From Liolophura sinensis (lineage: Eukaryota; Mollusca; Polyplacophora; Chitonida; Chitonidae): a stretch of DNA of 64,000 bases. The stretch spans positions 10,279,385 through 10,343,384 of the forward strand of contig NC_088295.1 in NCBI RefSeq assembly GCF_032854445.1. Reading direction: 5' to 3'. Every line of letters starts with the position of its first letter. Within the stretch, counting starts at the first letter, position 1. Positions 21,266-47,801 of the stretch are shown piece after piece. The notes below the pieces were generated by a model, which saw nothing but the letters and a program-made list of their open reading frames with translations, searched no databases and was not told the origin of the DNA. The position numbers were made by a program, and so were the translations under genes.

Positions 21266-24200
21266 ATGCAGCTTTCCAGTTTGAATGAAATACTTTTTGT
21301 ACTTGCCTGCGTGGCACATTTTGCGCATGCCGAACTTTTCACTGCAGTTGTGGAACTTCAAAAAGCTTTGTACGCAGAGAAAGAAGTTGCAGGAGAGCTG
21401 AGAAAATACATCCGATCAGAAGAAGAAAGACTTGAAAAATTACGAGCGTGAGTATGACTTTGGAAAGTAGATTTTAATTCAGAATCAGATGGCAATAATT
21501 AGTATGAATGTTGTTGTGGGTTAAAGGAACTTGCATAAAATAGCCAATATCATTGTGGAACGTTCAACGAAGCAAACTATAGGTCATGTAGGTGACAATA
21601 AAGAAGACATTCCAACAAATTATGCAAAGAAAAAGACTTGTGGCACACAGTAATACTCTTATGTTTGTGAATAGCTTGTGAATCATTCAATATAATATGG
21701 AATCGTTAGCTCAAGAGGCTGAAGAAGAATAGAATAAGTAATTATTTAGTAACAATGTATAAAACATTGAATGGTTGATTCCTTATTGAATATATTTAAA
21801 TTGGATACACATTCTCTTAAATACGGGTTCTTTTGTGTACTTGTATGTAGTGGTTTGATATCTTGCAGTAATTAAATTAATCCCGATAATTCAACTCCCA
21901 CAGGCTTGACAGCATCCTTATGTTAGGAGGCTTGTCTGGTACCTGGCCATGGTTGGTGTCATCTGCCCATAAACCTGGGTACTTTTAATGTGGAATAGGC
22001 ACTGGGACTTGGTCAAGTGGTCAAGTGCTTGTGGGCCACTGGTGATGATAAACAGTTGATGTCCCTTATGTGGTCATCTGCACAGTCTTACATTCATTGA
22101 AGACCACTTGTCTTCAGTTAGTATAGTGTGCTTATCTGTACGTCACTTGTGGAAAAGTTTGTCAGTAACTTCCCATAGGTCAGTGGTTTTCCCCAGGCAC
22201 TTTGGTTTCCTCCATTTGTGAAAGTGACTTTCATCACATAGTGAAAAATTCTTCAGGACGTCATTAAACAGCAATCAAATAAATAGATTAACTTGTGCAT
22301 GGATCTAAATACAAATCTTCGAAATAACAGCAAACATTCGAATTCTCTTTAATGAAGTTTAGGAGTCAGTGGGAAAGTTTCACATAAGAAGGGCTTTCCA
22401 GTTTTCCATTCATTCAAATTTCACCTCGTTTTGTTAAGCTACATTGTGCCTACTGTTAGACTGCTAAATTTTAGTACTAGAAAAATACATGGTAACGATG
22501 TGCCTGAAAAAGGAGAAAGAATGATGATTATGGAAATCCTGATAGAAGTTCTTTTTCAAGTATCCCCATCCTGGAGATTTCCCAGATAGTTATGGGTTTC
22601 CGAGGGTCTTAAAGAGGTTATACCAGAGATTATTGGTATCAGACCACAAATTGATTTTTTGAAATTCCATCACTTTGGTACTCATATTATTAAAACTTTC
22701 AAAAAGTATAACTGTTGGCTTGTTTGTTTTTTTGGTAAGTATTTTGGTATACAACAGTAACTTGTAAACACATACCACAAGACAAAGGAATTAAAGGTAA
22801 TATACAATGTACATGTACGAATGTATACTGAGCCCCAACATGTACTGCAGAGGAATTAACAATATGTACAGTACACCAAGCCCTGCCCAGCTATGTGAAC
22901 CTGAGCTTATTTAATTTTCTGTCTGACATGCACATGGAATTGTAGAGCAACCCACATTATACATTTGTACAAAACATTTTAATACTGTTTAATAATATGT
23001 TTAACACTGATGAATCTGTTATTGTCAGCAGTTAAAATTTGAAAAATTTGATTTGCTCATTTTTATAATGTTTTTTTTTTCTTTTTTGGCCCTTCACAAT
23101 CTGCACTGTAGCTTTTTTAAGTAGAGTGCATGTAGGCAATGTTTTAATAAGTTGCAGTGTGCTGATCCACAGTGTGCACAGGTTGAGGCTACCACATCTT
23201 GTGTGACATTTACCTGGTTTTAATTTATGCACTTATGAAAGAAATACTTGTCTGACAGCTAATGCCTAATGTCATATATTCTCCTTTGTGAGACAAAAAA
23301 AAATACTGGTATACTAAAAAAATAAATAAAAAGCCTGTTTAGTTATTATAAATATAAAAAATTATTTCTATTTTGAACCTGTTTTCAATATATGTAACCT
23401 GCACCTCTGGTTTTGATTTAGTAATTTATTGTTCTATTCCTCACCTAACTTTGACGTATAATAATTCAGTTTCTCTGCTTTTTCTTACAGAATAGCCAGC
23501 GATTATGAGCGGCATGCTAATTTAGCTTTAGGAAACACAGAGTACTATTTAGCAAATCCAGTCAATGCGTTTTTACTTGTGAAGAGGTTCACTCTGGACT
23601 GGGGAAAATTAGACAGCTTGCTCAGCACTCAAGCCAATACAGGTAAGTTATGAATCATGTTTTTGTTTTGCTCTTGTGGAATTTTTTTCTTATAAAGGAA
23701 GATCTTGAAACATTGAATCAAAAAAGTTTATTGAAGGAAGGACAGTGGAAGAAAGACATCTGAAACTTACTGACAGGCAATCACTTCACATTTCCTGTTT
23801 TAATTCTGCAAAAAAAACTTTAAATAGGAAGACAATACTTAAGACAAGATAGTTTTTTTTTTTGATGTTATAGTGGTGTATTAATCAGATGAATTTCACA
23901 CATCAAACTATGATCTTGTTGAAAACAAAGTATCTTTAAAAAAAATAAAATATTTTTGCTTCTTAAAAAGCTGAAGGCATTAAATTTCAAATTGTGTGTC
24001 AGTTGATATCTGTTCAAATCAAGCCTTTTCCCAGAATGGATATAGGGGTTCTTACTTCAGCCCTGCCCCTAAGCCACTTAACATGGGAGGTTTATGACAA
24101 ACAACATGTATGAGATTGTTGCAAACACAAGTCCGTACCTCTGTGATCAATTAATTTCACGTAATTAGGCCTGTAAAATGAAAGTCGTGCCTCAGTGACC

Positions 24201-27200: not shown

Positions 27201-30200
27201 TATGACTAAACAGGAAGTGGCCTACATAATATTACATGTACATCATTTGTAATGTTTTCAAGTGCTATATTGTACTACCAGTGATAACATGCTTTATGTT
27301 GTGTGGGAAACCAGATACTATTACTGTATTCCTTATGCCAATAAGTTATGAGAATCCTGGATTACCTCTGTAAGAAAGATGCCAATGATGTCATGTATAT
27401 TTTATTTACATGTATATGGCAGTCCCTCTCATACTTTCAGTTGGTGTTGTGTGAAGCATTGTGGCTATATTGAAGATACACATGATATAATAAATACAGT
27501 AAATGCCGAGGATGCATACACAAGTGGATTTTAAATGCCAAGATCAGGAGAGTTTAAGGAGTAGTTTTTATGGTTGATCTGGCTGTAGTGAGTACATGAA
27601 TTGTGTGTGTGTGTTGTGAATGTGATTATCAGAGACATCTGTACATAACTGTTCTACAGCTTTATCCTGTGGAGTGGGCACTATTAAAATGGTTGATTGT
27701 TTCTCCTCAGTCGGCGGAGGAAGTGGGCTTCCACAAATTTCCCAGCCAGCTTGGGAAACTCCCGCAAAATGTGCATCCCTCATGACCACATAAATATACC
27801 TTCCTGAGAAAGTAATAGCAAGTTACCATGCTGATGTTGAAGTTCAGTGATGTAAAAATATATAAATACTGGATATGTAGAAATATGCACCATGGCTCTG
27901 TAGGGATTTATTTAAAGTCTGATTAATAAGCTTTGTTCCATAAACAATTTATAACGACCACTTTTTACCTATGCATGGTAAATGTAGAAATATGCACCAT
28001 GGCTCTGTAGGGATTTATTTAAAGTCTGATTAATAAGCTTTGTTCCATAAACAATTTATAACGACCACTTTTTACCTATGCATGGTAAATGTACAATTCA
28101 TTTGAAGGATAATTGTATGATTTTCATATTATCAGTTTGATGAAAATAGCTTAACAAAACAAGTTAAAACCCTAAGAAATCAGTGTCATTTGTTGTTATA
28201 AATGTGGTGTTAACTTGGTAGCATGTTTTCCATTATTTACTTCTTACCCTTTATGGCCTAAATCTTAAAATGTTATTTACATGTATTGAGATGATCTCTC
28301 CTTGACATTATGCTACAATTCTGTAAAACTTTCTGTAACTTACATGTAGACTTGTACATAAAAAAAGACATACTTGAACGTAAGGTAAGCATTTTTAGTT
28401 TTGGAGTTGTGTAGATAAAAACTGGCAGGACTGGGTTGTACAAATGTAAATAAGTATAGCTTAAACAAGCTGAAGATCATTGCTCAAACCATATTATTAA
28501 ATCGGCAAATCATTTTTTGTAAAAGTACAAGCACAATTGTTTCACACCATTGGTAGCTGACCAATGTATTCAGGAATAAATGAAAACTTACATTCTACTA
28601 ATATCAGATACATTTATTTATGTCTTAATTTATTTGATTGGTGTTTTACGCCATACTCAAGAATATTTCACGTATATAACTCAGGTGTGAGTTTCTAATG
28701 CGATGCTAGTCTTTTGATTAATTATGCATAAACCACATTGAACAGTACCTGTGTATGCTACATTACATATAACATGGATAGGTCTTGTCTGGCCGGCGAA
28801 GTACCTGTGTATGCTACATTACATATAACATGGGTACGTCTTGTCTGGCCGGCGAAGTACCTGTGTATGCTACATTACATATAACATGGATAGTTCTTGT
28901 CTGGCCTGCGAAGTACCTGTGTATGCTACATTACATATAACATGGGTACGTCTTGTCTGGCCTGCGAAGTACCTGTGTATGCCACATTACATATAACATG
29001 GATAGGTCTTGTCTGGCCGGCGAAGTACCTGTGTATGCTACATTACATATGACATGGATAGTTCTTGTCTGGCCTGCGAAGTACCTGTGTATGCCACATT
29101 ACATATAACATGGATAGGTTTTGTCTGGCCTGCGAAGTACCTGTGTATGCTACATAACATATAACATGGATATGTCTTGTCTGGCCTGCGAAGTACCTGT
29201 GTATGCTACATTACATATAACATGGATAGGTTTTGTCTGGCCTGCGAAGTACCTGTGTATGCTACATAACATATAACATGGATATGTCTTGTCTGGCCTG
29301 CGAAGTACCTGTGTATGCTACATTACATATAACATGGATAGGTTTTGTCTGGCCTGCGGAGAAGCCTCTATTCATGTCATTTGTTTATTAGTCTCTGAAC
29401 CTTGTATTTTGGGAATTGTGCATTTTTTTTTCTGTCGCGATTGCTTTCACTATGATATGATCAGATGGTAAAGCTCATGCACTCGCTTATTAAGAGAGAA
29501 TGCATTTTTTTATACGTCTATGTAACACTGAAGTACAGTGGTTGAAAGAATTTTGAATGCACTTGGGGTTTTGAAAACTCATCGTTGAGAAGTCTTTTCC
29601 TAATTGCTGTTTATTTGTTTATTCCAGACCTCCTTACAAGAATAAATGAGTTGCGTGCTAATTTCCCAGATGTTGAAGATCTGAATGGGTGGCAGCTGCA
29701 CTGTGCGGCTGCAAGACACTTATCAGCTGAACACCAGGGAAATCGCCTCTGGCATTTTGGGGGGACACAGTGTCGTCAGAGCTTACAGGTATGTTTTCCC
29801 CATACTAAATCATTCCTCCCGATTTTCTTGTCATCAGTTTTCATGCAGTTTTGTGTTGCATTTTATTTCCATCTCGACTGATGAGCTTCCCAAAGTAGAG
29901 TATTGTGGTAATTCCAACAAAAGATACAATCATGCATCATGTCATATCTCTTATTTTACATGAACTCATTTGTTTAAATTTTTTTTTACAGAATTCATAA
30001 ATATTTTTATCTTCTTTTTCTGTTGAGTTTGCCCGTAAAGCATGTCATAGAATCTGATTTATTATTAATCGATAATCCTAAAACTGTATGTATTTTTAGT
30101 CTGCTCTTTCCTAATATATTTGCTGATATTTTTGTATTTTGATATGTTTGCCAGAGGATAGACTAGAGAATGTGATAGCATGATTAGAATGACATCTCCA

Positions 30201-33200
30201 GTTTTGTGCAGTTTTGGGGCTTTTTTTCATGATGCAGTTAATCTTTCCCACCTACCCTTGTGCTCCCTTTAGTTCTCATTCTGGCAGGACAGGCTCGTTA
30301 AGCAGGATGTCTTCCCCTTTTTATGACATCACTCACATAATGTTTGCATCCAGGAGACCTGTTTTATGGCTGTGTCTGAGAACTGATCGATAGCCCATGG
30401 AGATTTCATCAAAGTGACTCTGACTATATGTGATCCAGCCTAATAGCTTTGTGTTGACTCTAATTAAGACCAGATGTTCTTCAGAGACCATAGTTTTTTG
30501 TCTTCTTAGCTTTCATCTCAACCTAAACTATCCTCAAGGCAGTTCAATCCAGTCCTGCTCTTTTTGTTATTGAATGTGTCGGAATCATGCAAAAAGCCAA
30601 CAGTTCAAACTTTGACCAAGGATGTAATACTCTTGTTAGCTTTAAAAAGAACATATATGTACATGTGTACTTGTTTCCATTTGAAATTGTACTACAACAT
30701 CTCTTAGGCTATACACTTGAGGGATTCAGCACCATTTTGTTCACTTTAAACACTGTATATCATTGTATAAACCCTATATTGTCTGTATCTAACTTGAGGA
30801 GAGCAGCGACTGAGATTGTGAGTATGTTGTTGTCCATCAATCATAATGCACTTTTTTTTCCCTGATCTATCCTCTGAAAAAGGTCTATTAAATCCTGTGT
30901 GTCATGATTTGTAGTTGTTTTTACATCAGGAACAAAGGTAACAAGTGTTGAGCCTTGGTTATTCAAGTCCATGTACTTCTTACCCTTGGGCTGAAAGGAA
31001 GTCAGTTATTTTACGTGTCAGTGTACATCTATGTCTAGATGTCTAAGTATGGACACCCATTGTGCAAATCAGATGGAGTTTTTATGCTTCTGATTTGTAC
31101 TGCTAAGCTGTTAATATTTCCCAGAATTTAATATTCCTAAAACAAATCCACATAGAATCATCATGATTTACCTAGCAGATGTACTTCAGGGATTGTGAGA
31201 AATTCATTGGTCATTACTTGTTCCCATTGAACCAGTCCTAAGTGATGATTTTATGTTCACATGGTATTTTTTACTTTTGTACACTTCATTTATAATGCAT
31301 TGCATGATTACAGTGAACCAAATTTAGCTTTGGAGCTAAATGTACACTAAATATACATATAAATCTGTCTGTACTTGCTTATTTAGTTGTGTGTTGGAAA
31401 AATCTCACTTATGTACTGTATGACATTGAAATGTGCGCATGGATTTTGTTGACTGTCAGTTGTATTGCTAAAACATTTATAACCCTGAGTATATACTGTC
31501 CTTTGGCATGTGTGTTATCAGTGAGTGTTGTGTAGTCCAGCTGTTAGCTGGTTTTGTCAGAGTGTGGACAACTTTTCCTTACCCCTTCTGGACTAACTCA
31601 CTTTCTTCAAAGAGCTATGAGTTATTCATTGTTTCCTTTTGCCATTTCTGAATTGTACGTATATGTAACCCACTGAAAAGATTCTGGTATTGGATCTGTG
31701 ACTTCTGGCAGACTTCTGCTATCAAACCAGACAGTCTCTCTCTTCATGTGTGGGTGGGCCATGTACATGATAGACAACTCTGCCAGGAACACTCTTTTCA
31801 CCTTGTCTCTACCCCCTGTTAACCCCTGCATGTGGAATGTGTTGATTTCAGCTGGGGACTGCTTCCAGCTGGGCAAGTTGGCCTATGAGGACACCGACTA
31901 CTATCACACTGTCCTGTGGATGCAGGAGTCCTTACTAAGGCTGGATGCTGAGCTCAATAAAACAGCTGATAAGCCAGATATTCTAGACTACCTGTCTTTC
32001 TCCATGTATAAGGTAAAATGTACAGGTGTTATTAGGTCAGGTAGACTTTAGACCACTCTTGAAGCAGAGGTAAATTTACCTGTTTCTTCTGAAATCTACA
32101 TTCACTTTCTTAAAACTCTGCAAATAAGTCACAAAATTGTCAGGGGACTGGCAATATGTATTTTACTGGTGAATGTCTGAATTTGATTCATTAGTTTTTG
32201 AGCAAGAACAGGTATTTTAACCTCTATCTATAATATTATTAACTAACAGGTCATCCTGATAAGATTTATTGCATGTAAGTGATAACTGGTCTCAGAAATC
32301 TGTCACCATGCCAATGTTAGCGAAAAGTCCACTTTTTTGATCAGTCTTTAATACATACCAGATATGCCCAGGACAAACCGTTGCTGTTCACGGGCTAAAC
32401 AGTGAAAATACACATCTAATAAAAACAGAAAATGGACGTTTCCATATTGGCACATATGGCATCTTTTCGACCTTTTTTTTTTTTTTTTTTTTGTTTTTCT
32501 GTAGGCTTTAGGATGAGTGAAATCACACAGTGAAATTTGACACAAATGGTTAGATCACTTGGGAGTACTGTACTTCATTTACTGTTAACTATTAAAAGGA
32601 AAGACAACACAACACTACCTTGAACACTGTTTTGCCTTTATGCCATATGAGTATGGGTGGCACCCCTAACATGTCACCTCTCATGGCTTCTTAAGAATTC
32701 CAGATTAAAAGATGATTTATACATCACAATTCATCAATTGTGGCCATTTAGGTCTGTTTCCTCTTCTGAAATAACCAAAGTGAAATTATTTGTTGTCTTT
32801 CCTTTTAATGATATTTCTAATGTACATAATGACTATTACAGGGTAAGTTTTCAGTTGTAATTATATGATGAAGATAAGGATATTTGATAAGACAAAACAA
32901 TGCAATCTTACTTTTTGGATAAGTTTGAATCCGCTAAAAAATTATTAAAACGTTAAAAGTTTTCAGGGGTTAATCCAGACTGGCAAGTCATTCTGGAAAG
33001 AACTTCGATCTATTCTTAATTTTGAAAAAGTGTTCATGTTACTTGTTTTTCTTTTTTTTCTAGCAAAAACAGCAAATCTGAAAGTTGTAATAAGTTTTGT
33101 GATCAATAGCGTGTGAGATTAGGTCTTGTAAGATAATGGTTCCATTTATTTCCACATCTACAAATTGTGGGTGCCGGAAGTGGAAATATGGCAGTAACTC

Positions 33201-36200
33201 TGGCATTTCGCAGTAATTGATGGACATCTGCCCTGTTAATGGGTCTCTGTCTCATACATATGGTACTGACAGGTAAATGATACACACATTCATCATAGAG
33301 CCAATACAGCACATAACTGGCTAAATGATGGGTGTTTGAATGCTGAAAAGGAACTCCCACTGGAGTGTTCAAGTACATATAGCCAAGATATTGGTACAAA
33401 CAATTGAACTTAAATTGCTTATGGAGACATAGATATTTAGCATCAGTTTATCATTAAGTTTGCCTGTGTAATATATTAATATATGGTACATCATATCATA
33501 CATTCTGGTGAACACTTGTTCTTACTAACCTTGTTCTGCCTACTAATCATACCTCTAAGCTTGAAGACTTCTGACCTCACTTTCCAAGGATTTATGATTA
33601 ATAACTGTATATATTGCATGATGGCAAATTATAATACAAAATTCTTGTTGCATAAGCACATGTATAGATGAAGTTGAAAGTATTGCATCTTTTACTACTA
33701 CATGTGTATTGAACATTTCCTGTCTAATGATGATCACAAGTTGCATGATCCTGGCATGAGAACGATTAGGCACATGTGCATTTCACTAAGCCATGTGGCT
33801 TTATGTTTGTGTAACCCAAACTCTAACATGCTTGCAGCACGTTAATAAGGACCATAACTGCTTCCTTTGCCTTTGACCAGAAAGGTCTTATGGGTGAGTG
33901 ATCTCAATTGAAATGCTGGGCTTCCCTCAAATTTCCAGCTGAGGACTGTTTCCAGCTAGGCCGGTTTGCTTACAACCAAAAAGACTACTACCACACTGTG
34001 ATGTGGATGCAAGAGGCACTAGAGCGGGGGATCAATGAAGTGAACAAAACCATAGAGCGACCTGTTGTTCTGGACTACCTTGCCTATGCTATGTCCAGGG
34101 TAAGAGTTGGCTTCTGGGATATGCCCCTTAAACACAGTACTGTATAACATACTGATCTTGTGGGATACGCGGGTGATTGTACTCTGTCTATAGTTTGTCA
34201 TGCTGCTTGATGCCCTTAGCCCCAGGACTGGTGGCGGTTATAGTATTGTAATCAGGCTCATTTCTAAACGACTGCTGCTTTCTGTGTGGTGGAGTTCAGG
34301 TTCAGGATGACCTTGTTATAAGCCTACATGTTCTGTTTTCCTTATTCTTTTGGTAGTTTGGTACCAGGTGACAGCTTTACCAATACGCAAACACTCAAAG
34401 TAACCGTCTATACATGTGATAAGGATGTTAAAATGTCGGTAAAAATAAATCAGAAGTTGTTACCCATGTAGAAACTTTGTGATGTTACTTCTACTTGCCT
34501 CTTAAAGAATTTACATTATATCTGTGTGATTAATTTCTTATTGATTAATTTTATCTTTTCGTTTGTAGCAAGGAAACATGATGCACGCACTGAAGCTAAC
34601 AAACGAATTACTAGAGCTGGGTAGGTGCACATTTATGTAAAGATTTAGACCCCTAGTGTAAGGATTGAAAAATAAAGAGGCCAGGAATTTATCAATGACC
34701 GAGTGCCTCACATGATGTGCAGGTTTTTCAGATCCTGAGTGTATGTCTGGGAATTTGCTCTTGCCAAAACATGTGTTCTTGAAAAAGTGGATCAGACATG
34801 ATTAATTCTACATCTCATATGTACATGTACAGAGGAAGGTTAATCTGCCATGCTTAAGAATTTGTCTTCATTTTTTATTATCGTTACGCCACACAAAGTA
34901 TGGGTTTAAACCTGGCCTGGGACAGAATTTGTAGATTTCCCTGCTTTCATTGCTTGTGGGGCCTAGGTGACAAGTGGTGATTATTAGTGAAATATTATTA
35001 AGTGCGGTCTATATCACCGGTATGGTGAGCATACATTTGTACATCGCTTGTGAAAAGTTTATCAGTAAGTTACAAAAGGTCAGTGGTTTAGTGGGCACTC
35101 TGGTTGCCTCCACCCACTGACACCCATTGTTTAAGTGAAAAATTCTTAACTTGCAACTGCCTACACTCAAAAATGTATGTGCACTACATTAAATAGTCGT
35201 TGTCTTAGAGGTTTAAAGTCGGGTGTTTTGTCAGGCATTGGGCACAGGTCAGAGATTTTAATTCTCTAAACAATCTGATTTCCCCCATCCATATACTTGA
35301 CCACTATCAGAAATTCAACAAGTCCATAAAAATTTTAAAATCTTGGGCTGTCTTAATGGTATAACAAGTGGAAATTAAGGTAGCTGGACATTTTGATAAT
35401 TAAAGGATAATGGATGTACCGTTCAGACGTTTTGATAACTTATTAGTTATTTGGAGATTGTTTTACATGTATAACAAATGTTCACTGTGGACCGCTGATC
35501 TCTAATCTCTAATCAGAGAATGATGGAAAACAGGGATTGCGGATATTTACAAGTTGTATATTTGTGCAGTCCCTGTTCAAGTCCACTGTGTGAGATAGGA
35601 AATACAGGTACATAAATGTTGTCACTTGTATCTGTTGTCCTCTATTTGGCCTGATATGAATATTGCAGAGCCTGACCACGAGAGAGCTAGGAACAACAAG
35701 GCCTTTTACCAGTCAAGTCTACAGATAGAGTTGGGAGATAAGCCCCTGAGTGACGATATCGTTCCTGAGGTGAAGAACCCCAGGCAGATGGACCCCTACA
35801 GATCCACAGAGGAGTTCCTCACCTATGAGGCGCTCTGCCGGAACGAGGAGACGCAGGTGAGCAGTTGGCCCAGGGGACAGAAAGCTACGCCCAGACTAGA
35901 GAATACAAAGCTATGTTCTGGCTCAGGGGACACAAATCTGTGCCCTGCCCAGTGTGTGTCCAGGTGACACAGCACTACTTACAGGCCCAGGGAACACAGA
36001 ACTTCATTCTGGCCTAGAGAACACAAAGTGGCACATAGCTGCTCAGGGGACACAAAGATACGCCTCTGGCCAAGGACTACAAAGCAACACTCTGGCCTAT
36101 CAAAAATAAAGCCTATTGAAATTAATCCCAATTGGCATATCTTGCTGTTTATAAATTATTGAATGATGGGATAGCCACAGTAGCTTAGTGTTTAGCAAGA

Positions 36201-39200
36201 ATCTTATAATTTGACATTCATATAGTGAACATTTTGTTTTAATCACCACTTGGTAACATTGAACTAGTATTATGATTAAGCCTTTTTAAAAGCAATACAT
36301 ATATTGAGATTTAGATGGATCCCATTCGTCCAGGTTGAGAAAAGGTGCTTAGCTAGAATCAGCTATCATGACTGGGATTTGTACAGACTGTTGGTACTAA
36401 AAGTCCACTATTTTGCCAAGTGGAATGTACTTGAATGTACTTGCTCAGTGTTATGGAAGTGAAATATCTGCTACATGTGAACAAAAGTCCTCATTCTTTG
36501 AGCGCCATGCTGTGATACCCCGCGCTGACTCTTCTGTGTGCCAATGCTGGAAATTGTCTTGTCAGCCTCTCTGACAGGAAATTTTGCAAGATAATTAGTT
36601 TAGCCACATGTCACTTGCATGTCTAATCAGGAGCTACATTTAAATTCTAGCTGTCTGGCAAGGTAATGGAATTGCTTGCAGCTGAATGTCCATTTAGGTT
36701 ACCATAAATGCCTTATTCCTTTTTTGCCAACACCGTCATGTCATTGGATCCAAACAATACATAAAGGCTCATTCTTTTCCAACCATGGTAACTAACTAAG
36801 CTTAAGCTTATTGAATTGAAATAGATTTTGTGATAATTAGAATCTTAAAATAGGCTCAACTTGATAACTTTATAATTCATTACTGCCTCTAGCTGAGTCA
36901 CTTAATACCTATACATCAGTAATAATTTTCTTCTACTGGTCACTGTACATCACCCATCATTTCATGGAAGTTTTCAACAGCTACCAAAAATTAATCACAT
37001 TTTGTACTACTGCAAGACTAATTGTTAGTGAAAAATTCTGTTTACATATAAATGAATTGCTTATGTATCTTCTCCTTGAATCCATAAAATTTTACCATTT
37101 TCTATCATTTTACCAAATTTAGCTAGATGTTTACACAAATTGCAACATATTAGTCAGTAAATTCAACATATTACACAGAAAGTGTGACACTTTTGGCAGG
37201 ATGTACAATATATTACATGGAAAGTGTGACACATTAGACAGGATATACAACAAATTACACTAAAAGTGACATTAGTCACTATGTACAACATATTACACAA
37301 AAAGTGATGCATTAGACAGGACATGCAACATTTTACACAAAAGTATGACACATTAGACAAGATATACGACATATTACACGGAAAGTGTGACATATTAGCC
37401 AGGATATACAACATATTACACAAAAATGTGACACATTAGCGAGGATGTACAACATATTACATAGAAAGTGTGACATATTTGGCAGGATATACAACATATC
37501 ACACAAAAATACGACACATTAGCCAGGATATACAACATATCACACAAAAGTGTGACACATAAGACAGGATATACAACATATTACACAGAAAGTGTAACAC
37601 ATTTGGCAGGATTACAAATGTGCGCACAGTTTGGTATTATAAAGTATATGATGTGCCCTATTTTAACTTACAATAGTAATATAAAGGCTATAGAGAGAGT
37701 TGTCTGTAACAAAGACTGGCATGTTCATTTTAATAATGTTTTGGTGCTGGTAAAATGTCGCATTTCTGTAAGCTACAAGTGTATCCACTTATATCAAATT
37801 ATTGTGAAGTGTTTTGTACATTGTGTAGTGGTATTGTATGAGTCCATGTCGTGTTGAAAATCTGTATTGGGTGAGACGCCACAGGTGTCGAGTCCAATGC
37901 AGATTTCCAACACTCGGACAAGTAGAATACTACTCCAAAATGTACAAAGCACTCCACAATGACCTATTTATTATATAGATTAAACTGTCTACCAACTAAA
38001 ACCTCGCGCACAAATAACGAGCAAAGATACACGTATAGATTAAGCTGGCCTGGAGGAAGGTCTTTCGATCTCCCTGATATCAGCGAGCAATGCACTCACA
38101 CTCCGCCCCTCCCACTGCTTTTATCATATGAAGTTACCTCCCTTTGCTACGGTACAGTAGGAAAAAAAATACTGCTCTTGAAGATCCAGTATCGCTCCAA
38201 GTACAGTACGGTGACATGGTACGATGCAACGGATTTCATTGGATCACATTTATATTAATAAGAGTTATTCTCCTCATTGTTAATATGTAATATATAGAGT
38301 CCATTAGTACACAGTATGTGAATACCACTCCCCAACTTGACCCTCATATGTCTCTGTAGGTGTATGCTGACAGGCACAAGTTGAAGTGTCAGTACAAGCA
38401 CAACAACCACCCCCTGCTACTGCTGGCCCCTGTCAAGGAGGAGGAAGTATACTTGAACCCCTGGATTGTCATCTACCACGACCTGATGAATGATGTAGAA
38501 ATACAGACCATCAAGGCCTATGCCACCCCCAGGGTAAGCACCTCTGGCACAAAATTACAAGTGATAGAGATGTCTTGCTGAAGTGACATGACAGTAACGA
38601 TGGGTTACATTTAGGTTTCCAAAGTTATCAAAATATTGGAACAGTTATAGTTTGTGTCTAGGACTTTTGGTAAGATACTGTGAGATGGTAATAGATATAA
38701 TTAGCAAAACAGTTAGTTGAAGCACTTACATTACTTTCTGAAGTAACAGATAGCCCTAGTGGAATTTTCCAGGCATGGAAGTTAACAGCATAATGTTGGT
38801 CATTGAGTACATTTCTGGGTGATGGTAAGGTATAATTGTGTTGTATCCTTCTGTCTGTCAGTTGAATAGAGCAACAGTTCATAATGCTGTAACAGGCGAG
38901 CTAGAAACAGCTTTCTACAGAGTTAGTAAAAGGTATGTGCGTTACTGTAGGGCATGTAGCCTGTGTCTGCATAGTGGGCATGCCCAAGCTTCGTTGCGAC
39001 TCTCTCCTCCTCTGCTGTGTGATGTGCTGTGACCAGAGAGAAATCGCTGTTTTAACATAGCTGTCATTTCTTGCCCATGTCCGTGTAGCCTTAGATCATG
39101 CGTTGGTGTATGCACCAGTACCTGCTACATACATAAGTGGGGATCTGCATGATGATGGAGCATGTAGTTTTGTCAGCGCACTTCTGTATACTTACTGCAG

Positions 39201-42200
39201 TATTTACTAACTTATATGGATGTTGTGAACCCAAAATTTCTGGATATTGAGAATTTTTTGTATTTTTTTTTTTTTTTATGAATCCTAGATTTCTTTTTTA
39301 ATGAGAAATTATCCAAAATTTCAGCACAGTTGTACATGTAGAGTATAAGATGACAAAGGAACATTTTACAACCTAAGTTGGAACTATTTTGTTGAATGAC
39401 ATTTATGAGTAAAACTCATCTCAAAGATCAGTTCTTTCTGTTATAATTTACAATAAAGACACGTGTGTGTTATAAATAGAATTGCTCAAAGCATTGTTTT
39501 AGATGTAAATTAGGTGAGGCAAGACAAATTCAAGAAACTTTAAAATGTCCTCATTTACTGTACACATACATGTAGATGTGTTTGCTTTAGCTTGATTGAT
39601 GGTATTTGTAGATGTACAAGTTACATGTATATGTGCACCAGTGCCATTTGCTCACTATTTTTGTAAGAGGAAATCAGGTCAAGGGACATGTCAAAGCATT
39701 TATCAAATGGAAATCAAGAAGCTGCTCAGTCTATCTGCATGTATTGTACAAATGGCTGCATGTTACGTCTTGTTTTCTGCATGTTTCTCACCTCTACAGC
39801 TGTCCCGAGCCACCACTGGGACAGACGCCACTTTAAGCGAGCACAGAATCGCCCGCAGGTTTGCTGTCTTTGCCTGGCATTAGCACAAATGTGTCTACCA
39901 TACACCTCCTCTGACTTAATACAAGTAGTTTCATTCAGTCTGTAGCTGCTAACCACCCATGGCTCTCTGCTTTCTAAAATAATGGTGATCCATAAATCAA
40001 CCTCTTCAGTTTTTCAAAATCACTCTCGGTTGTTCTTTATATGAAACCAAAATTTTTTCCAGCATTTACCCTGGCATTTTGGAATGACAAAGCTGCAAAA
40101 TACAGGAGTGTGGCTTGGGACTGCAGAATTAACATTGAGATGACAATCTAGATTTAGTCTTTATTCTTTCATACTGCATTTTGTATCTGTTGTAGTATAT
40201 TGTGTTTATATATCCTAGTATCTGGAAGCAGTAAATGCATGGAGATATGTGATAAGATGTTACTGATATTACCGCAAGACAGCTACCCTACCTTTGTCCA
40301 GAGGGTTAAATTATCCTAAGTTCTGGCTTGATGCAGTCAAATTGTGTTTGTCAGCAAAGCTGAAATGGGCAGGACCCAGAAAAAGGGAATGCTCTCTTTA
40401 AGAGGCTAAATGGGGAAAGACTGTGATGTGAACTACTTTTATAAGGTTTTAGTGGCACAAAATGGTTAAATAAAGGAGGGAAAATATGACCAGCAAATCT
40501 GTTGGATGCAGAACAAATGTGATTATTCTAAATATATGCAGAAACCTCTGCTATTGGAGACAATTCGTATGGTCATGCTTGCCTCTCTGATTTATTAGGT
40601 ATTACCTATGCCAGTATGGGTGTGATTGCTGTCCCTACCCCTGAACATTAATACGTATAGGGTGTTTTGGAGTGCACTAAGTGATAAAAATAAAATATTA
40701 AATGTATCAACTAAACGAGAAATTGTGGAATAATTATGCTCAAACTATTTGTTGAATTTGCTTTTTAATTACTGCCTCCATGGTTTTCACATGGCTTAGA
40801 GCACCTGTCAGCTTTTTGTACAACTATCACTCATTACAAATACATGCAGGTGTATGTAATACATGCACTTGCAAGAACCACGAGCACAAATACTAGTACG
40901 TATGTGTCTGTGTGTAAAAGTTAACATCTTCAAAGCACTTGTGTGTGTTTCTGTAGATATAATATATTCTAACATTCCATGTCGCATCATGCTATTTAAC
41001 CAACTTGGCACTTCCATTGTGTCATCAAAAATAATATTCAGAAGTAGTTTTAATTTTTTATGTTGACAGTAACCTTTGTTAGCACATTTAAGTATGTAAA
41101 ATTGAATTTCAAAGAACTCTTTTTAAAGGGGAAGTTTATTACGGTAAAGGTGAAGACTAAATTGTGTCAGAATGTAATATACTTAATTACCATGAGTTTA
41201 TTTTGGTCAAGGTGAAGACTGCAATGTGTCTGAATGTAACATACTGATGTTAACTATTCTACAAGCAAAGCCACACGTTCCATGGGTTCATGTAATATGT
41301 TAAAAGTTTATTTGATGAGAAAGGAAAATAAAACTGTGATGCTAAATTTTGAAGTAACTAAATCTGGTTTTTTAAGCATCTTGCATGTTTTTTTTTTGCC
41401 TTCAGCGCTTGGCTAAAAGGATTTGAGCATCCAATATTTGAACGTATTAACAAACGGATAGAAGCAGTGTCTGGAATAAACCAGGAGACCTCAGAAGATT
41501 TACAGGTGGGTGTATAAATTTTCCGTAACTGTGGTGTTCTGTTAGCTCCCATCGTTTAAGCCATAGGCATTTTTTCTGTGAAATCCAGAAGTACTAAAAT
41601 GAATTTAAAATCTGTCTAAAATAACAGTAGTGCTGATATTGTCAAAAAACCAACATTTCATCATGTGGATGGGGGATAGTTTGTGCTTATCTGGCCTGTT
41701 AGTTCATCACAATTCAGTTTCCTGGAGCTATTTTTCAAAACGGTTCATCATATGGAATTGAAACTTAATACATACTTCACCATGATCACTTACAGAAAAA
41801 GTTTAACTTTTGTGTATTTATTACCTGCCAGTTTGAGGACTTCTTCCATAATACATTGTTAATTGTATTGAAATTAAACTTGGTACATCTATCCTCCATG
41901 ACAAGTTACATAAGTTCTTTAAGAGGCATATAGAAGTTAACGTCACAAAGTTTCTATATGGATAACAACTTCCGATTTATTTTCTGCTAACGTTCCGACG
42001 AACATTCTAACAGTTATCAAACATGTACATTGAAATGTCAGTAAAAATAAATCAGAAGTTGCTATCCATATAGAAACATGTCAAGTTGCATGTCATGTTC
42101 AGGTTTTGTTCTTTTAAATGTTGATCTTGAGCATAACTGTTATTCTGCTGGCCGGAGCCAGTAAAGGGAGCAGCACTTATCAATGCAACCTTACTGGATG

Positions 42201-45200
42201 TATTGTTCAAATTCAGCCCCCATTTTAACTGCCCAATCATTTCTGACCGTCTCTTTCCAGGTTGTTAACTATGGTATTGGAGGTCACTATGAGCCACACT
42301 ATGACTTTGCCAGAGTAAGTACTTATATAGTTATGTACAAAGTCTGAGCCATTGTATTGATAGATATAATGAAACAAGGGAACTCGTGGAAATGATTTGT
42401 AAGTACTGACCCATAAGGGACATGGCAGTTCTCTTTTTGTTGACTCTACATTTTTTATTTTCCATTTTAACAGTTTTAACAGTCTGAGTTTTTTGTTGTT
42501 TTTTTTTTTTTTTTTTTAATGCAGCCCCCCCCCCCCTCCCTTCCCCAGTAAAGAAAAACTCCCAGAAAAAGAAATTGTGTGGGAGTTTTGTAATTTTGTT
42601 GTTAAGCAGACGAAAAAAAACGCCAGAATTCCCAGAAAAAGATCTTGGGACCAGTGATAATAAGGCAGTCGTATCACGTTTTGCTTCACTGTGGATGCTG
42701 TCACTGGGTTATTATCTCACAGCTTGGGATAACTAAGCCAGTCATTTGGCCGCAGGTATCGTGATTTAAACAAGACCATGAACCAAGTTGTGCTGCAATA
42801 GGCTGAATGTCTCAGGGCCCAAGGTCTTTTCTGGGAATTTTCTCTCTTCCTTTGGGCCTGCTTAAAAAAAAAAAAAAAAAAAACATAGCAAAAAAAAAAG
42901 AAATTTGCCATGTCCTTTATAGGGCTCCGTATGTAAGAGTAAATGAATGTTTTTGTTGTTATTTCATCTTAAATTACCGGTGTGATGTTTGTCAATTGAA
43001 CTTGTGCAGAATACTCTTCTGTGAAAGAGTAAAGCTTTAAGTCTTGCTTTGTGCTATCAACCAATCAGTTTCAAGTGATTGTGTTTTTTCTATAGATGTC
43101 ACTCATAAAATGAAATACCATTGGTTTACATCCTCGGATAACCTACTGGGTGCAGTGGGCATTCTAAATATTATATACAGGTGTTTTCACTTTTTGGAGC
43201 GAACAGTGTATGCCTCTTTGGGGCCACTTTAACAAATCTTTGTAGATTAAATTGCTTGTAAATCTCTACGTAAATGACGTACAGCTGACATACACAGTTT
43301 GTGAAAGTGACATCATATTAAAGAATGTGTGCCTCAGCTGTCTTTGAAAACCTCTTTGAACTATAGCATGTTGTTATTATTCTGTGAGACATTGGTAAAT
43401 CAGGATATTATGTCCCATGACACTCCAGCAGACCTTGGTCTGTTAGAATAACCTGTGACTGCAATCTTCCGGTGTCCTTATGACAGGACTTAGGTCTCCT
43501 ATTGATTTTGTGTCTGAAGACACTCCAGATTAACTGTGTCTCGTTGTTTTCCTGTGGCTCATACATGTATGTCGTTACCTGAAGTACAGATAATGGTGCT
43601 AATTGTCATTTCCTCCAGACAGCTTCCGGTTTCCAGTGAAGCAAACTTGATCATTTCGTTCCACCAGATAGCGGGTCTTCCCTGGGTTTTTGCAATGAAC
43701 TAATTGCTGATCGGGTTCTTCCTGATTAGGTTGTGGTTTTATGTCAGGCAGTGTATCAGGCACCTGCCAAGGTGTGGTTGTTTTCTCCTTCCCATTGGGC
43801 TTTTCTCAGTTTCAATCCCTTGTGAATCTGACCAAGCGCATATAAGTGACATTTACTTGAGTTCAACTCCAGTAAACACCAAACACCAATCAAGCCTGAA
43901 TTTTATTAAATGACCCCATGATCTCAATAGGCAGGATGTATAACTTCTGAAAAGTATTTAGCTTATGCTTTTATATCTGATACTTTTGTTGTGTCCAATG
44001 ATCTCTGTGCACTTAGAGGCTTCACTGTTGTAGATTAAGATGCATGTACAGTCCTCGAAAAGCAGAGGCAGTTTTATTTAAAATCCAGCTTACAGTCTCA
44101 ACCACATTTGTTCTCTAATAATATTTTCTTGAACTTTTAGGTCAGGACAAACCTGATTTCAAAATTATATTTTAGCTTGGATCAGTCTCATACTTGAGAC
44201 TACTTGAGAATATGTCTTGATTTTGTGTCATATGTGGGAAAGTTCATGAGTTTCATGTACTTGTGCCCAGGTTTCCTCAGGACAGTTTGGTTTCCTATTA
44301 CCATGAAGCTTATAGCCATTGTACCAGTATTGGTATGTCTTATTGTGTATGGTATTAAAACTAAATCAAGAACCTATCTTTCAGAGGGAATCAGAGACTC
44401 GGTTTTGACGTATTAAACTTTGAATTTTTGATATTTGGTAATAAATATATGTATACATGTATATTTACAGGCAGATCTTCCTATTATTAATAGTTACCTG
44501 TAAATATGTATATTAATGGCACTCAAGATTTTCAATAATTAGAACTGAAAATTTGAATTGAATGTACATTTATGGCCTAAGATTTCACCCCCAGAATTAG
44601 TTGCACAATTTGCTTTCATGTGTTTTGCTGTTTTGATGTTTGTTTGGAAGATAGAATTACAGCAACAAAAGCAATATATTATGAAATTTCTTTATCATCA
44701 ACAGTGGACATTTTGGGGTGAAATTTTAGGTCATTTATCGTAATTATAGCGTAAAACAGGTACTACAATTGGGTTAAATTCCCAATGTAGGTATCTGAAG
44801 GCTGACTAGAAGATGGTATGATACTGCGGCCTGTTTGCCAACTGTGTAAACCCTGAGTACATGTATGTTCATATTGAAAGCATGGGTATAGTCTTGCTCA
44901 GCTGGTAGAGGTTGGCATGTAAGGCTGTACAATGGAATGGCATTATCCTAATGGTCAGTGGTAAGTGTGAAACAGAGATAACCTGCCATCTACATGGTGC
45001 ATTGCAGAGAAAGGAAAAGACTCCGTATGAAATACTTGCTGGGAACCGGATTGCAACCGTGTTGTTCTATGTAAGTCACACTGCGTACTTGTCACATGGT
45101 CAACGAGAGAAGCCTGCGGTGGATGTAAGAATGGGGTGCTGGGTAGACAGGCTTTAGGCAGGACTAATACACTAGCACATACAGAGGACTGCTGCACCTA

Positions 45201-47499
45201 TTTCTGCCATACCTGTGAATGATACAGAGGATTGCACTTGATAATTCTATGTAATGGTGCATCCAGGATGTGTGCATGAATAACCAGTACATTTGGACTT
45301 GATGATGTGTATGAACATGTAGGTTTGGAGCCATGTTTCACCTTCGACTGGATAGGTCATTAACATCTTCAGGGATGCCTTTCAGAATTCTTACTTTCAA
45401 ATGATATCCTGATGAAACTAGCGTCTAGTTTCGTCAGATGAAAAAAAGCTGTCAGCGAAAAATGGAACATGGTCACTGCCCTGTCTGGTGATTGCATCTT
45501 TTATAGGGTCTATTTGACATGAAGTGAAATTTGTAGGAACAAGCATCCAGAAACTTTATTAAATGACCTGTATCAGTAATTTGGATGGCGCATTTAGTGA
45601 ATCAAGGCTCTGTATGGACTGGGTGTGCTGGTCCTGCTTGTAGTCTGTTACCATAGGAGTTAGATGCATTAGATGTGCAACCACCGAACTGTGATGATTA
45701 ATTTCTCTTTTGTTTGTAACCTAGCTTGTATTAACTGTCCTATCATTGTCACAGAGAGACGAAAAACATGCTTTTCCCGAAGAGCAAGCAAACAGGATTG
45801 CCACACTGCTGTTCTATGTAAGTTTAGATGTTGTAGGAGTCCTCGCTGTATGACAATTCTGCGGTCTTAAACCCACCAAGCTCTCTGCAGGTTCTTCCCC
45901 ACCTGATCGCCTGCACTCACCCACCTTGTCTGTGTTTGCCACTGACTGAGAAAGGTTGTGCTTAGAACTAGCCTGGCTCTAGCCACTACTTACACCACTG
46001 CAAACAAACCCCCCATTAGCAACTACACCTAGACGCTCACACAATTACAGTCTCGACAAAACTTACCTTTTCCACAGGGGTCTGGGGAATTTATTTAACC
46101 AGTAAAGAGCGCAGACCAAGTGGTGATTGAATTCCTTTCTCAGGGGTAGGGAACGGTAGCAGAGGTGCATTATGTGGCATTCAAGCAGTTGACAATTTGC
46201 CAGAATTGTTGAGGGGAGTATAATCATGTGGTGATAAATACAGCATTGTGGACAAGAAATCAATTTCACCCAGGATAGGTGCACCATTGCTGTCAAATGA
46301 TGTGGAATAATAAAAAACAAGTTTACTTTGGCTGATTCGTATGTACTGAAGGGTGGTGGCTTTGTCAGGGCACTCCAGTTTTCTCCAAACATGAACTTGA
46401 CTTGTAAATAAAAGTCATAATCATTTAGGGAATTCGTCTCGTTTAAGCAGTGGATCAGAAAGTTTTATGGAATACTTGTGAGACAGTATTTGTATGACAA
46501 TTTTATCCAGAATCATGAAAGCTGCCATTAAAATTCAAGTACATGCACGTGTGTGTGTTTCCCCATTTTAAGGTAAAACAAAAATGATTAAAAATTGCAA
46601 GATAATGTAATTTTGACACATACACTGTATTAAATATAGCTGAATTAGGCGTACAGTATTTGTGAAACAGTCGGTGGTGTGTGATTTGGCATTAGTGTAG
46701 GGGTATGGTGAGGGGTAAAGGTTTGGTAGCTGCATGTATGGGGGGGGGGGGGGGAGGTGGAGGTGCACTCAGTGCTGTGGCTTTGTCATGTACATATCGG
46801 CTCTGGGCTTGGTCAAAAATAAGCTGCATTAACATTGCACTGTTCTGAATATGTGAGGTGTGGTTAACAGTAGATTTGCATGAGCTGTAATTGCCGTTTT
46901 TATATGTAATGTGTTCAGATGTTGTTGAAAAGTTCCATGTTATTAATTTATGCATTCTTACGTTTTGGGTTATAATGTACATGTACGTGGGAATATAAAA
47001 TTCCTCTTTTAATCTGCTGCTAGTTCTAAAAAATAGTCACCTGCATTAAATAAACATCTTAAGTTTTTAAACTTTTCTCGAGTAAATTTCAGTTTTACCA
47101 CTATATTTTATCTGCATGTTGATGCAATTTTAGAAGAAGAAATGGTTGTGATATTAGCTCACCAGAGTGACTTGTTTCTTGTACAGATGAGTGATGTGGT
47201 TGCTGGGGGTGCCACTGTCTTCCCCTACATTGGCGTCAAATTATTTCCTGAGAAAGTAAGTAATCCAGGCCATCCTTTCCTTTATATTTTAAAATAACTA
47301 TGTAATTTTTGGTGGGCCTGAAGAAGCAGAGGAACTGGGACTTGGTTTACATACGGAGCTATGATACAATCTAGTAAATTTGCATTTGACGCAGATTTGT
47401 GACCGCTTTATTAAAGAGGCCATCAAATTTTGTGAATAAAGTTTCCTCTCTTCAGTTTTGTAAATAGTTTGTTTAGATTGAAGGAAATCTAACATTAGG

Positions 47500-47548
<49 letters not shown>

Positions 47549-47801
47549 TTAGGAATGGCAAGTGTTGAAAATGTGTTCTAGGCAGACATGTTACAGGTTC
47601 ATGCATTGTATAATTGTTTGTGTTACGTAACAGGGTGCAGCGGCGTTCTGGTTTAACCTGTACAGAAATGGAGAAGGAATATATGATACACGACACGCAG
47701 CCTGCCCTGTACTCTCTGGCTCCAAATGGGTCTGCAACAAATGGATGCATGAACGAGGTCAGGAGTTCCGCCGGCCCTGCAGCCTGCGACCTGATGAGTA
47801 A
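21266..47801 (+). CDS. P4HA: Prolyl 4-hydroxylase alpha subunit with three duplicated exons
   Basis: This is the catalytic subunit of collagen prolyl 4-hydroxylase, an ER enzyme using Fe(II), 2-oxoglutarate, O2 and ascorbate. Exons: 1, 21266-21447; 2, 23491-23642; 3, 29628-29788; 4a, 31852-32012; 4b, 33939-34099; 5, 34569-34620; 6, 35669-35856; 7, 38360-38533; 8a, 38862-38932; 8b, 39800-39858; 9, 41406-41505; 10, 42261-42314; 11a, 45008-45070; 11b, 45755-45817; 12, 47187-47255; 13, 47634-47801. One copy of each pair gives about 531 aa, close to human P4HA1 (534). Signal peptide NEILFVLACVAHFAHA; N-terminal dimerisation helices in exons 1-3; TPR-like peptide-binding domain from the end of exon 3 into exon 5; dioxygenase domain from exon 7. 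Iron ligands are H and D of EPHYD (exon 10) and H of DTRHAACPV (exon 13); the 2-oxoglutarate lysine is in GSKWV, ten residues after that His. Exon 3 has frame breaks. Whether the vertebrate equivalent is P4HA1, 2 or 3 cannot be told. Confidence 0.96.
21900..22286 (+). mobile_element. SINE copy, near full length
   Basis: It shares with 34885..35155 the blocks 'gtgtgcttatctgtacgtca', cttgtggaaaagtttgtcag, 'ggtcagtggttttcc' and 'agtgaaaaattcttcaggac', and ends 'aaacagcaatcaaataaata'. It lies in P4HA intron 1. Confidence 0.65.
24830..25036 (+). mobile_element. SINE copy, mollusc-type, with tRNA-like head
   Basis: A tRNA-like head (gctagcacagtacaataccc, then gtgcaagtccagc) is followed by 'gtgggaaagtctgccagcag', 'gtcgtgggtttcccgcgggc', 'cttcctcccaccataagtga' and the tail 'cataaaacaccaatcagata'. 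It lies in P4HA intron 2. Confidence 0.75.
26285..26705 (+). mobile_element. Diverged SINE fragments
   Basis: One old copy spans about 26290..26455 ('gtgggaaagtctgttggtga', then 'caggtgaaaaatccatgagt'). A separate tail-only fragment lies at about 26650..26700 ('cttgagtacggcataaaaca' then 'ccaatcaaataaattaata'). Both are in P4HA intron 2. Confidence 0.6.
27875..28088. repeat. Perfect tandem duplication, 107-bp period
   Basis: The block starting 'atgtagaaatatgcaccatg' at 27875 repeats without visible change at 27982, and both end 'cctatgcatggtaa'. The lack of differences makes it a recent duplication, or an assembly stutter. It lies in P4HA intron 2. Confidence 0.9.
28630..28690 (-). mobile_element. 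SINE tail fragment, antisense
   Basis: The minus strand reads 'cttgagtatggcgtaaaaca' then 'ccaatcaaataaattaagac', the family tail in reverse orientation, in P4HA intron 2. Confidence 0.65.
28743..29362. repeat. Minisatellite, 56-bp unit, about 11 copies
   Basis: The unit starts 'gtacctgtgtatgctacatt', continues 'acatataacatggatagg' and ends 'cttgtctggcctgcgaa'. Copies are nearly identical. Variant positions (tacattac/tacataac, gataggt/gatatgt/gggtacg, ggccggcg/ggcctgcg) recur in a pattern; for example the 112-bp dimer at 29128..29239 is repeated at 29240..29351. The array lies in P4HA intron 2, just before exon 3. Confidence 0.92.
29628..29788 (+). CDS. P4HA: P4HA exon 3, reading frame broken at three places
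   Basis: The exon begins in phase as DLLTRINELRANFPDVEDLN. To continue the P4HA family sequence, the frame must change after codon 29684-29686 (next to GGG), again after 29703 (between the two Leu of ALLRLQDTY), and again in the six-G run 29759-29764. It then ends SSELTA in the phase that both exon 4 copies require. Family length is restored only by the equivalent of one missing base at each of the first two sites, and one extra or two missing in the G run. Flanking splice sites are good. Confidence 0.8.
31852..32012 (+). CDS. P4HA: P4HA exon 4a, peptide-substrate-binding domain, first copy
   Basis: 161 nt, entering in phase 1 and leaving in phase 0. It encodes AGDCFQLGKLAYEDTDYYHT, continues VLWMQESLLRLD and ends LDYLSFSMYK. 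It corresponds to the helices that bind proline-rich procollagen peptide in the alpha subunit. The copy at 33939 has identical length and phases. Acceptor tttcag, donor gtaaaa. Confidence 0.93.
33939..34099 (+). CDS. P4HA: P4HA exon 4b, peptide-substrate-binding domain, second copy
   Basis: 161 nt with the same phases as exon 4a. It encodes AEDCFQLGRFAYNQKDYYHT, continues VMWMQEALERG and ends LDYLAYAMSR. Compared with 4a, the C-terminal aromatic pattern is swapped (LAYAMS against LSFSMY). Splicing both copies together would shift the frame, so the two must be alternatives. Acceptor ttccag, donor gtaaga. Confidence 0.93.
34885..35155 (+). mobile_element. SINE copy, near full length
   Basis: A tRNA-like B box (tgggtttaaacctggcc) is followed by 'gacagaatttgtagatttcc', cgcttgtgaaaagtttatca, 'ggtcagtggtttagtgggca' and 'aagtgaaaaattcttaac'. 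It shares blocks with 5280..5415 and 21900..22286. It lies in P4HA intron 5. Confidence 0.65.
35860..36105. repeat. Degenerate minisatellite directly after exon 6
   Basis: Diverged copies of about 30 bp carry 'ggcycaggggacacaaag' followed by a variable part. The series starts within about 10 bp of the exon 6 donor site (gtgagc at 35857). It keeps a reading frame open past the splice site for another 109 nt, but this has no P4HA similarity. Confidence 0.65.
37145..37615. repeat. Minisatellite, about 35-42 bp unit, in P4HA intron 6
   Basis: About a dozen copies of 'caggatatacaacatattac' followed by 'acaaaaagtgtgacacatta'. Units differ in length by a few bases. The cysteine- and methionine-rich minus-strand frame across it is a by-product. 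Confidence 0.88.
38862..38932 (+). CDS. P4HA: P4HA exon 8a, alternative exon, first copy
   Basis: 71 nt, phase 0 in and phase 2 out, encoding LNRATVHNAVTGELETAFYR then VSK. It aligns with the exon that is duplicated in vertebrate P4HA1 and P4HA2 (mutually exclusive exons often called 9a and 9b). Acceptor gtcag, donor gtatgt. It joins exon 9 as SKS-AWL. Confidence 0.92.
39800..39858 (+). CDS. P4HA: P4HA exon 8b, alternative exon, shorter second copy
   Basis: 59 nt, with the same entry and exit phase as 8a, encoding LSRATTGTDATLSEHRIAR. It lacks four codons after RAT relative to 8a and is more diverged, but it still joins exon 9 cleanly as ARS-AWL. The acceptor is good (cctctacag); the donor gtttgc is weak. 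Because 71 and 59 both leave a remainder of two, joining both copies would break the frame. Confidence 0.78.
41950..42077. mobile_element. Hairpin MITE, about 128 bp
   Basis: The left arm 41950..41983 (gtttctatatggataacaac..) is the inverse of the right arm 42044..42077 (..gttgctatccatatagaaac) over 34 positions with two differences. Part of the arm and its left flank (cacaaagtttc, ttctttaagaggca) is found again in reverse at 34437..34515, a related, partly deleted copy. It lies in P4HA intron 9. Confidence 0.75.
42600..42875. mobile_element. Inverted-repeat element with long diverged arms
   Basis: The left side has 'ttaagcagacgaaaa' and 'gaattcccagaaaaagatct' then tggg. The right side carries the inverse of the same blocks, 'ggtcttttctgggaattttc' and 'gggcctgcttaaaa'. 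The middle is unique. Homopolymer runs flank it (T and C near 42497..42540, A near 42864). It lies in P4HA intron 10. Confidence 0.5.
43720..43905 (+). mobile_element. Diverged SINE copy
   Basis: It contains cacctgccaaggtgtggttg, 'ttctccttcccattgggc', 'gcatataagtgacatttact', 'tgagttcaactcc' and the end 'aacaccaatcaagcct', in the order of the family blocks. It lies in P4HA intron 10. Confidence 0.6.
45008..45070 (+). CDS. P4HA: P4HA exon 11a, alternative exon, first copy
   Basis: 63 nt in phase 0, encoding RKEKTPYEILAGN then RIATVLFY. It follows the HxD iron site of exon 10 and precedes MSDVVAGGATVFP of exon 12. The family equivalent is the KDEPDAF..NRIAT..FY segment. Acceptor attgcag, donor gtaagt. 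Confidence 0.9.
45755..45817 (+). CDS. P4HA: P4HA exon 11b, alternative exon, second copy
   Basis: 63 nt in phase 0, encoding RDEKHAFPEEQAN then RIATLLFY. The RDEK.AF start is closer to the vertebrate sequence than that of 11a. It has the same length and phase as 11a. Here joint inclusion would keep the frame, so exclusivity must be controlled by other means. Acceptor gtcacag, donor gtaagt. Confidence 0.92.
47503..47546. repeat. (TA)n microsatellite
   Basis: About 21 uninterrupted TA units in the last P4HA intron, between exons 12 and 13. Confidence 0.95.

Follow-up and report, generated by a model that had tools for sequence, protein, structure and literature searches.

Can one gene supply several forms of an enzyme that differ where the enzyme touches its substrate? 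The question is raised by a 64-kb stretch of the genome of the chiton Liolophura sinensis (RefSeq assembly GCF_032854445.1, contig NC_088295.1, positions 10,279,385 to 10,343,384 of the forward strand), which we call the window. Its plus strand carries, at positions 21266-47801, a gene for the alpha subunit of collagen prolyl 4-hydroxylase (P4HA) with 13 exon positions, and positions 4, 8 and 11 are doubled. This doubled-exon structure is real, and alternative use of the paired exons is likely. The explanation that we favour, and hold to be probable, is a single P4HA gene with three independent exon pairs, mutually exclusive within each pair, which could yield up to eight substrate-tuned alpha subunits.

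Results

We searched two of the eight isoform combinations against Pfam, with exon 3 entered in pieces. The domains P4Ha_N (PF08336), TPR_P4H (PF23558) and 2OG-FeII_Oxy_3 (PF13640) were all found above cut-off and in that order. That is, the gene encodes an N-terminal dimerisation domain, a peptide-substrate-binding domain of the tetratricopeptide repeat (TPR) type and a 2-oxoglutarate (2OG)-Fe(II) catalytic domain. The closest solved relatives are human P4HA1 for the N-terminal and peptide-binding parts and human P4HA2 for the catalytic part (E 5e-86 for the match to its catalytic domain). Alignment to P4HA2 puts EPHYDF in exon 10 and both TRHAA and GSKW in exon 13, and the H-x-D...H and Lys set is present; we take these residues to be the iron ligands and the 2OG-binding lysine, respectively.

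All six paired exons are bordered by AG and GT, partners fall into the same length class modulo 3, and from exon 4 to exon 13 each of the eight combinations is open through to the stop codon. An earlier note on this DNA, made from the letters alone, had claimed a P4HA gene with three exon pairs and eight open combinations; the three Pfam domains bear out the first point, and the borders, matching phases and open frames the second. Its description of the pairs as tandem homologous copies holds for pairs 4 and 11, which match in tblastn searches, but not for pair 8 by direct similarity, where the kinship emerges only through the hairpins of the family. Splicing in both copies of pair 4 or of pair 8, or skipping both, puts the reading frame out and leads to an early stop, which supports exclusive use at these two positions. 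No convincing further copy of any exon was detected in the window by tblastn, although a very diverged one could escape this search because it also missed 8a against 8b. A candidate scan of the window at positions 8 and 11 likewise gave no exon beyond the known pairs.

Exons 4a and 4b are each other's best non-self match in the window (tblastn E 7.5e-20) and share 31 of 54 residues. Over 53 codons they differ at 17, 13 and 28 first, second and third positions, with a nonsynonymous distance (dN) of 0.31 and a synonymous distance (dS) too saturated to be computed. Both align without gaps within the human peptide-binding domain, where the earlier note had rightly placed them. In that domain the P5 pocket is formed by Tyr196, Tyr199, Asn227, Tyr230 and Phe231, and the P8 pocket by Tyr158, Tyr193, Tyr196 and the Asp192-Arg223 bridge; the domains of human enzymes I and II differ in their preferences for proline repeats (PMC12433258, in excerpt). 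Tyr158, Asp192 and Tyr193 are retained in both copies, and positions 196 and 199, the former common to both pockets, read Phe and Tyr in 4a and Tyr and Ser in 4b. The remainder of the groove (Arg223, Asn227 and their neighbours) is encoded by the constitutive exon 6. Since residues 196 and 199 change while the three other P8 residues encoded by this exon are kept, the exon-4 switch edits the P5 side, and it may thereby alter which proline repeats bind.

Exon 4a shares 29 of 54 residues with human P4HA1 and 4b shares 27; the human residue agrees with 4a alone at eight sites and with 4b alone at six. The distance between the two copies is thus similar to that of either from the human exon. An old duplication, perhaps one near the protostome-deuterostome split, would fit this, and so would a later one followed by faster change. 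Among the open-licence papers listed we found no precedent for an alternative exon in the peptide-substrate-binding domain of P4HA, and P4HA is not mentioned in PMC4465641, PMC5740500 or PMC9741552 (main texts).

The other two pairs fall on loops of the active site. In an algal prolyl 4-hydroxylase (P4H), the hairpin loop comprises Ser77-Thr94 and the betaII-betaIII loop His148-Gly159 (PMC9676403, in excerpt). With algal Ser77 as numbering anchor, five further named residues (Thr94, Tyr134, Tyr140, His148 and Gly159) lay on the expected letters. Exon 8 aligns to algal residues that include Ser77-Thr94, and exon 11 to a stretch that starts with His148-Gly159.

For position 8, all open-frame AG..GT candidates of 50-80 nt whose length is 2 modulo 3 were collected from both strands of the window and scored against the hairpin loops of human P4HA2, algal P4H and Bacillus P4H. 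Among 1,485 candidates 8a ranked first (score 57) and 8b second (29), with the third at 15. In addition, the hairpin exon of a P4HA paralogue on contig C7 is 59 nt long, exactly as 8b is. This rank and this length make 8b appear to be a genuine hairpin-loop exon, if a short one.

Pair 11 directly follows the H-x-D of exon 10, in agreement with the earlier placing of this pair near the iron site. Its copies are again each other's best non-self match in the window (tblastn E 0.004), with 11 of 21 residues identical, dN 0.48 and dS 1.24. In a corresponding scan of 1,071 candidates, 11b came first (41) and 11a second (35), and the next, unrelated candidate reached 16.

Read against these alignments, the three pairs are jointly predicted to alter part of the peptide groove and both substrate-binding loops of the active site, sparing the catalytic residues. 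Each transcript would take one exon per pair, and the resulting alpha subunits, up to eight, would have the dimerisation domain and the catalytic residues in common. Their differences would lie at three points of contact with the substrate: the proline-binding groove in part (exon 4), the hairpin loop (exon 8) and the betaII-betaIII loop (exon 11). Pair 4 would tune the seating of proline-rich repeats at the P5 pocket and leave the P8 pocket largely as it is; pairs 8 and 11 would tune how the tunnel closes over the proline at the iron. Mutual exclusivity, tissue control and changed substrate preference are all things that we infer. The coordinates of the gene are collected in Table 1.

Table 1. 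Exons of the P4HA gene and a candidate regulatory stretch (positions in the window).
Feature	Position	Strand	Description
exon 1	21266..21447	+	ATG; hydrophobic N-terminus resembling a signal peptide; from gene model, splice borders and P4Ha_N
exon 2	23491..23642	+	
exon 3	29628..29788	+	three single-base G-run frame breaks; sole match in assembly
exon 4a	31852..32012	+	161 nt; first peptide-substrate-binding copy, Phe196/Tyr199 (human P4HA1 numbering)
exon 4b	33939..34099	+	161 nt; second copy, Tyr196/Ser199 (human P4HA1 numbering)
exon 5	34569..34620	+	
exon 6	35669..35856	+	
exon 7	38360..38533	+	
exon 8a	38862..38932	+	71 nt; long hairpin-loop exon
three-TGCATG stretch	39736..39783	+	at -64, -43 and -22 of exon 8b; candidate Rbfox-type sites
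exon 8b	39800..39858	+	59 nt; short hairpin-loop exon
exon 9	41406..41505	+	
exon 10	42261..42314	+	H-x-D iron motif EPHYDF, codons from 42291
exon 11a	45008..45070	+	63 nt; betaII-betaIII loop exon, first copy
exon 11b	45755..45817	+	63 nt; betaII-betaIII loop exon, second copy
exon 12	47187..47255	+	
exon 13	47634..47801	+	distal His, Lys, stop codon

Alternative explanations

Several observations weigh against three exclusive pairs. The first concern exon 8b. No tblastn match between 8a and 8b was found at E<=20, and the donor of 8b is weak (CAG|GTTTGC). When 8a is replaced by 8b, the score falls from 293.6 to 276.6 bits against human P4HA2 and from 85.0 to 79.0 bits against the algal enzyme, and 8b also lies slightly below 8a against two further P4H chains. 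Thus one member of at least one pair, most likely 8b, might be a relic exon that is rarely or never spliced, leaving fewer than eight forms. However, 8b is free of stops, keeps its phase and the hairpin ends L-x-R-A and R-I, and has an acceptor with a pyrimidine fraction of 0.80. Against the Bacillus enzyme the same replacement takes the score up from 80.7 to 89.9 bits, and a gap disappears, so that the hairpin aligns gap-free. Together with the length shared with the C7 paralogue, this speaks against a relic, which we consider unlikely.

A second group of observations concerns exclusivity itself. At pair 11 the frame does not enforce it: both copies have 63 nt, and all four outcomes, that is, both copies, either one or neither, remain in frame. 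The differences between 11a and 11b, at 10, 7 and 9 first, second and third codon positions, lack a third-position excess. The introns between the copies measure 1,926 nt (pair 4), 867 nt (pair 8) and 684 nt (pair 11), too long for exclusion by crowding, and steric hindrance is therefore ruled out as the enforcer. Distant branch points are ruled out as well, the AG exclusion zones at 15 acceptors being ordinary (18-69 nt). The copies could accordingly be alternative without being strictly exclusive, with pair 11 acting as two cassettes and joint use or skipping at positions 4 and 8 as an off-switch for the enzyme. But 11a and 11b fill the same structural slot, the betaII-betaIII loop and the next strand, so inclusion of both or of neither should break the fold. 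Furthermore, what the variants of P4HA2 change at this loop is its sequence and its length (PMC9676403, in excerpt). On balance we rate non-exclusive use as decidedly unlikely.

Competing RNA stems, as a further means to exclusivity, are not established. A first listing gave two, three and no inverted repeats of at least 14 nt around pairs 4, 8 and 11; a second script, which counted by a rule of its own, gave three, one and none, compared to shuffle means of 0.75, 0.75 and 0.47. At pairs 8 and 11 the counts thus come close to what shuffling gives, and pair 4 shows some excess. There, the intron between 4a and 4b contains a perfect 19-nt inverted repeat (32591-32609 with 32791-32809), and an exact stem of at least 18 nt arose in one of 60 shuffles of the region. 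An inverted pair of 14 nt (93%) that flanks 4a overlaps bases of this 19-nt repeat.

As a candidate control element we considered TGCATG, which we take to be an Rbfox-type motif. Besides the three copies within 64 nt upstream of 8b, one lies at -25 of 4a, and the shorter GCATG follows 8a at +20 and +46. TGCATG occurs also at -24 of exon 9 and at -74 of exon 12, both of them constitutive. In the interval -80 to -6 of the 15 acceptors six TGCATG were counted (P=0.0012 versus random intronic anchors; P=0.0097 for any anchor with three), but these uncorrected values are generous because the motif was chosen after it had been seen. In FGFR2, Fox2 acts through UGCAUG upstream of the second of two exclusive exons to repress this exon and favour the first (PMC2880598, in excerpt). 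By analogy, and as a secondary and weaker proposal, an Rbfox-type factor might repress 8b through the upstream TGCATG and favour 8a.

The last point against our explanation lies upstream of all three pairs. As assembled, the breaks in exon 3, which the earlier note missed, amount to a net change of -1, so the gene lacks a continuous reading frame across exons 1 to 13, and a search of the assembly did not find a second copy of this exon. Long-read assemblies often contain errors in homopolymer length. The conserved family blocks of exon 3 are recognisable, scattered over three frames, and exons 4-13 are open, including both members of each pair. Since exon 3 is this well conserved and the rest is open, an assembly error is the likeliest cause of the breaks; a very recent or allelic change is possible. 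For the same reasons a pseudogene, in which the pairs would be irrelevant, is very improbable.

Several repeats lie in and around the gene. Exon 3 sits about 270 bp downstream of a tandem array of 11 copies of a 56-bp unit (28744-29358), and intron 2 also contains a 107-bp unit twice in tandem with a 100% match (27875-28093). A 7.5-kb array with about 118 copies of a 64-bp unit (51117-58586) begins about 3.3 kb 3' of the P4HA stop codon. An Rfam search of the window yielded nothing at gathering scores.

Paralogues in the genome

Genome-wide searches covered the assembly of 609 Mb in 632 contigs. At E<=1, PF23558 matched 4a, 4b, one exon on contig C4 and, weakly and partially, a site on C6 (all four of the four scored candidates), in a search that misses diverged paralogues. 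More P4HA-like genes, some apparently grouped, lie on C1 (6.60-6.65 Mb), C4 (9.70-9.77 Mb), C7 (27.71-27.74 Mb) and C9 (0.28 Mb).

Hairpin exons were sought in stretches of these paralogues with a looser scan (45-110 nt, three phases, the hairpins of the window included in the reference set). One was found in gene B on C1 (65 nt) and one in gene C on C4 (71 nt); none was found in the stretches scanned of gene D (C4) and of C9. The C7 gene has one 59-nt hairpin exon, so that a hairpin exon of this length exists in another gene of the genome; the C7 sequence that was scanned stops about 180 bp upstream of it, and a further copy beyond is possible. Gene A on C1 contains two near-identical copies of a 65-nt hairpin exon. 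An exon of the exon-11 type was present once each in the stretches of genes A, B, C, C7 and C9 and was not found in that of gene D.

The two hairpin exons of gene A (C1:6615000-6624999) belong to a recent tandem duplication at about 6615633-6615952 and 6616069-6616388, whose copies are 97% identical over about 320 bp and lie 436 bp apart; the exon copies within them differ at one base. This duplication may represent a newborn exon pair, placed as pair 8 is, or else an assembly artefact. Elsewhere, C8:37880506-37891931 encodes a row of eight haemocyanin beta-sandwich domains, and the open frame that holds each of them has 429-529 codons. Haemocyanin of this type with eight units is a mark of molluscs, and the genome accordingly looks molluscan.

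Discussion

The role of the peptide-binding domain in the hydroxylation mechanism is an open question (PMC12433258, in excerpt). Here, matched natural variants of this domain and of both active-site loops appear to be available from one gene, on a shared background. Combinations of them could directly reveal how collagen preference depends on each element, and a comparison of molluscs with vertebrates bears on whether gene duplication replaced alternative exons. The ancestral bilaterian P4HA may have been one gene whose splicing varied the peptide groove and both loops, vertebrates having later split the hairpin and betaII-betaIII switches between the duplicated genes P4HA1 and P4HA2, respectively, and lost the switch in the substrate domain. 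We regard this history as conceivable but doubtful, and considerable evidence is reported that tandem exon duplications have converged between vertebrates and invertebrates (PMC9741552, in excerpt).

The earlier note had ascribed to vertebrate P4HA1 and P4HA2 alike only a pair of the exon-8 type, which is wrong. Splice variants of collagen prolyl 4-hydroxylase (C-P4H) I affect the hairpin loop; in those of C-P4H-II, of which one expresses exon 12b, it is the betaII-betaIII loop that changes (PMC9676403, in excerpt). Its view that two pairs go beyond the vertebrate genes therefore stands for pair 4, for which no precedent was found, but falls for pair 11, whose novelty is ruled out by the P4HA2 variants. 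As both the hairpin and the betaII-betaIII position are doubled in the chiton gene, it unites sites that have been reported separately for P4HA1 and P4HA2. What is without precedent in our search is that a single gene has both of the catalytic-loop switches of the human genes, the alternative being shortened in one of them, together with a switch in the substrate domain.

In human P4HA2, the partner of exon 12b is named 12a. The alternative hairpin exons of human P4HA1 are reportedly of equal length, whereas 8a and 8b measure 71 and 59 nt: the second copy here is 12 nt (four residues) shorter, and two more pairs lie in the same gene. Exons 9a and 9b of human P4HA1 (exons 9/10) are mutually exclusive (PMC11868403, in excerpt) and resemble pair 8 in belonging to the same gene family, with variants at the hairpin loop (PMC9676403, in excerpt). 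Exons 12a and 12b of human P4HA2 are the counterpart of pair 11, with variants at the betaII-betaIII loop; those variants alter its sequence and its length (same excerpt), whereas 11a and 11b are equally long. Beyond this family, Drosophila Dscam (PMC1397879) and Caenorhabditis elegans unc-32 (PMC3585155; both in excerpt) likewise multiply isoforms by independent exon clusters. Unlike in those genes, the clusters described here are pairs, they lie in an enzyme that modifies collagen, and each is situated at an element that contacts the substrate.

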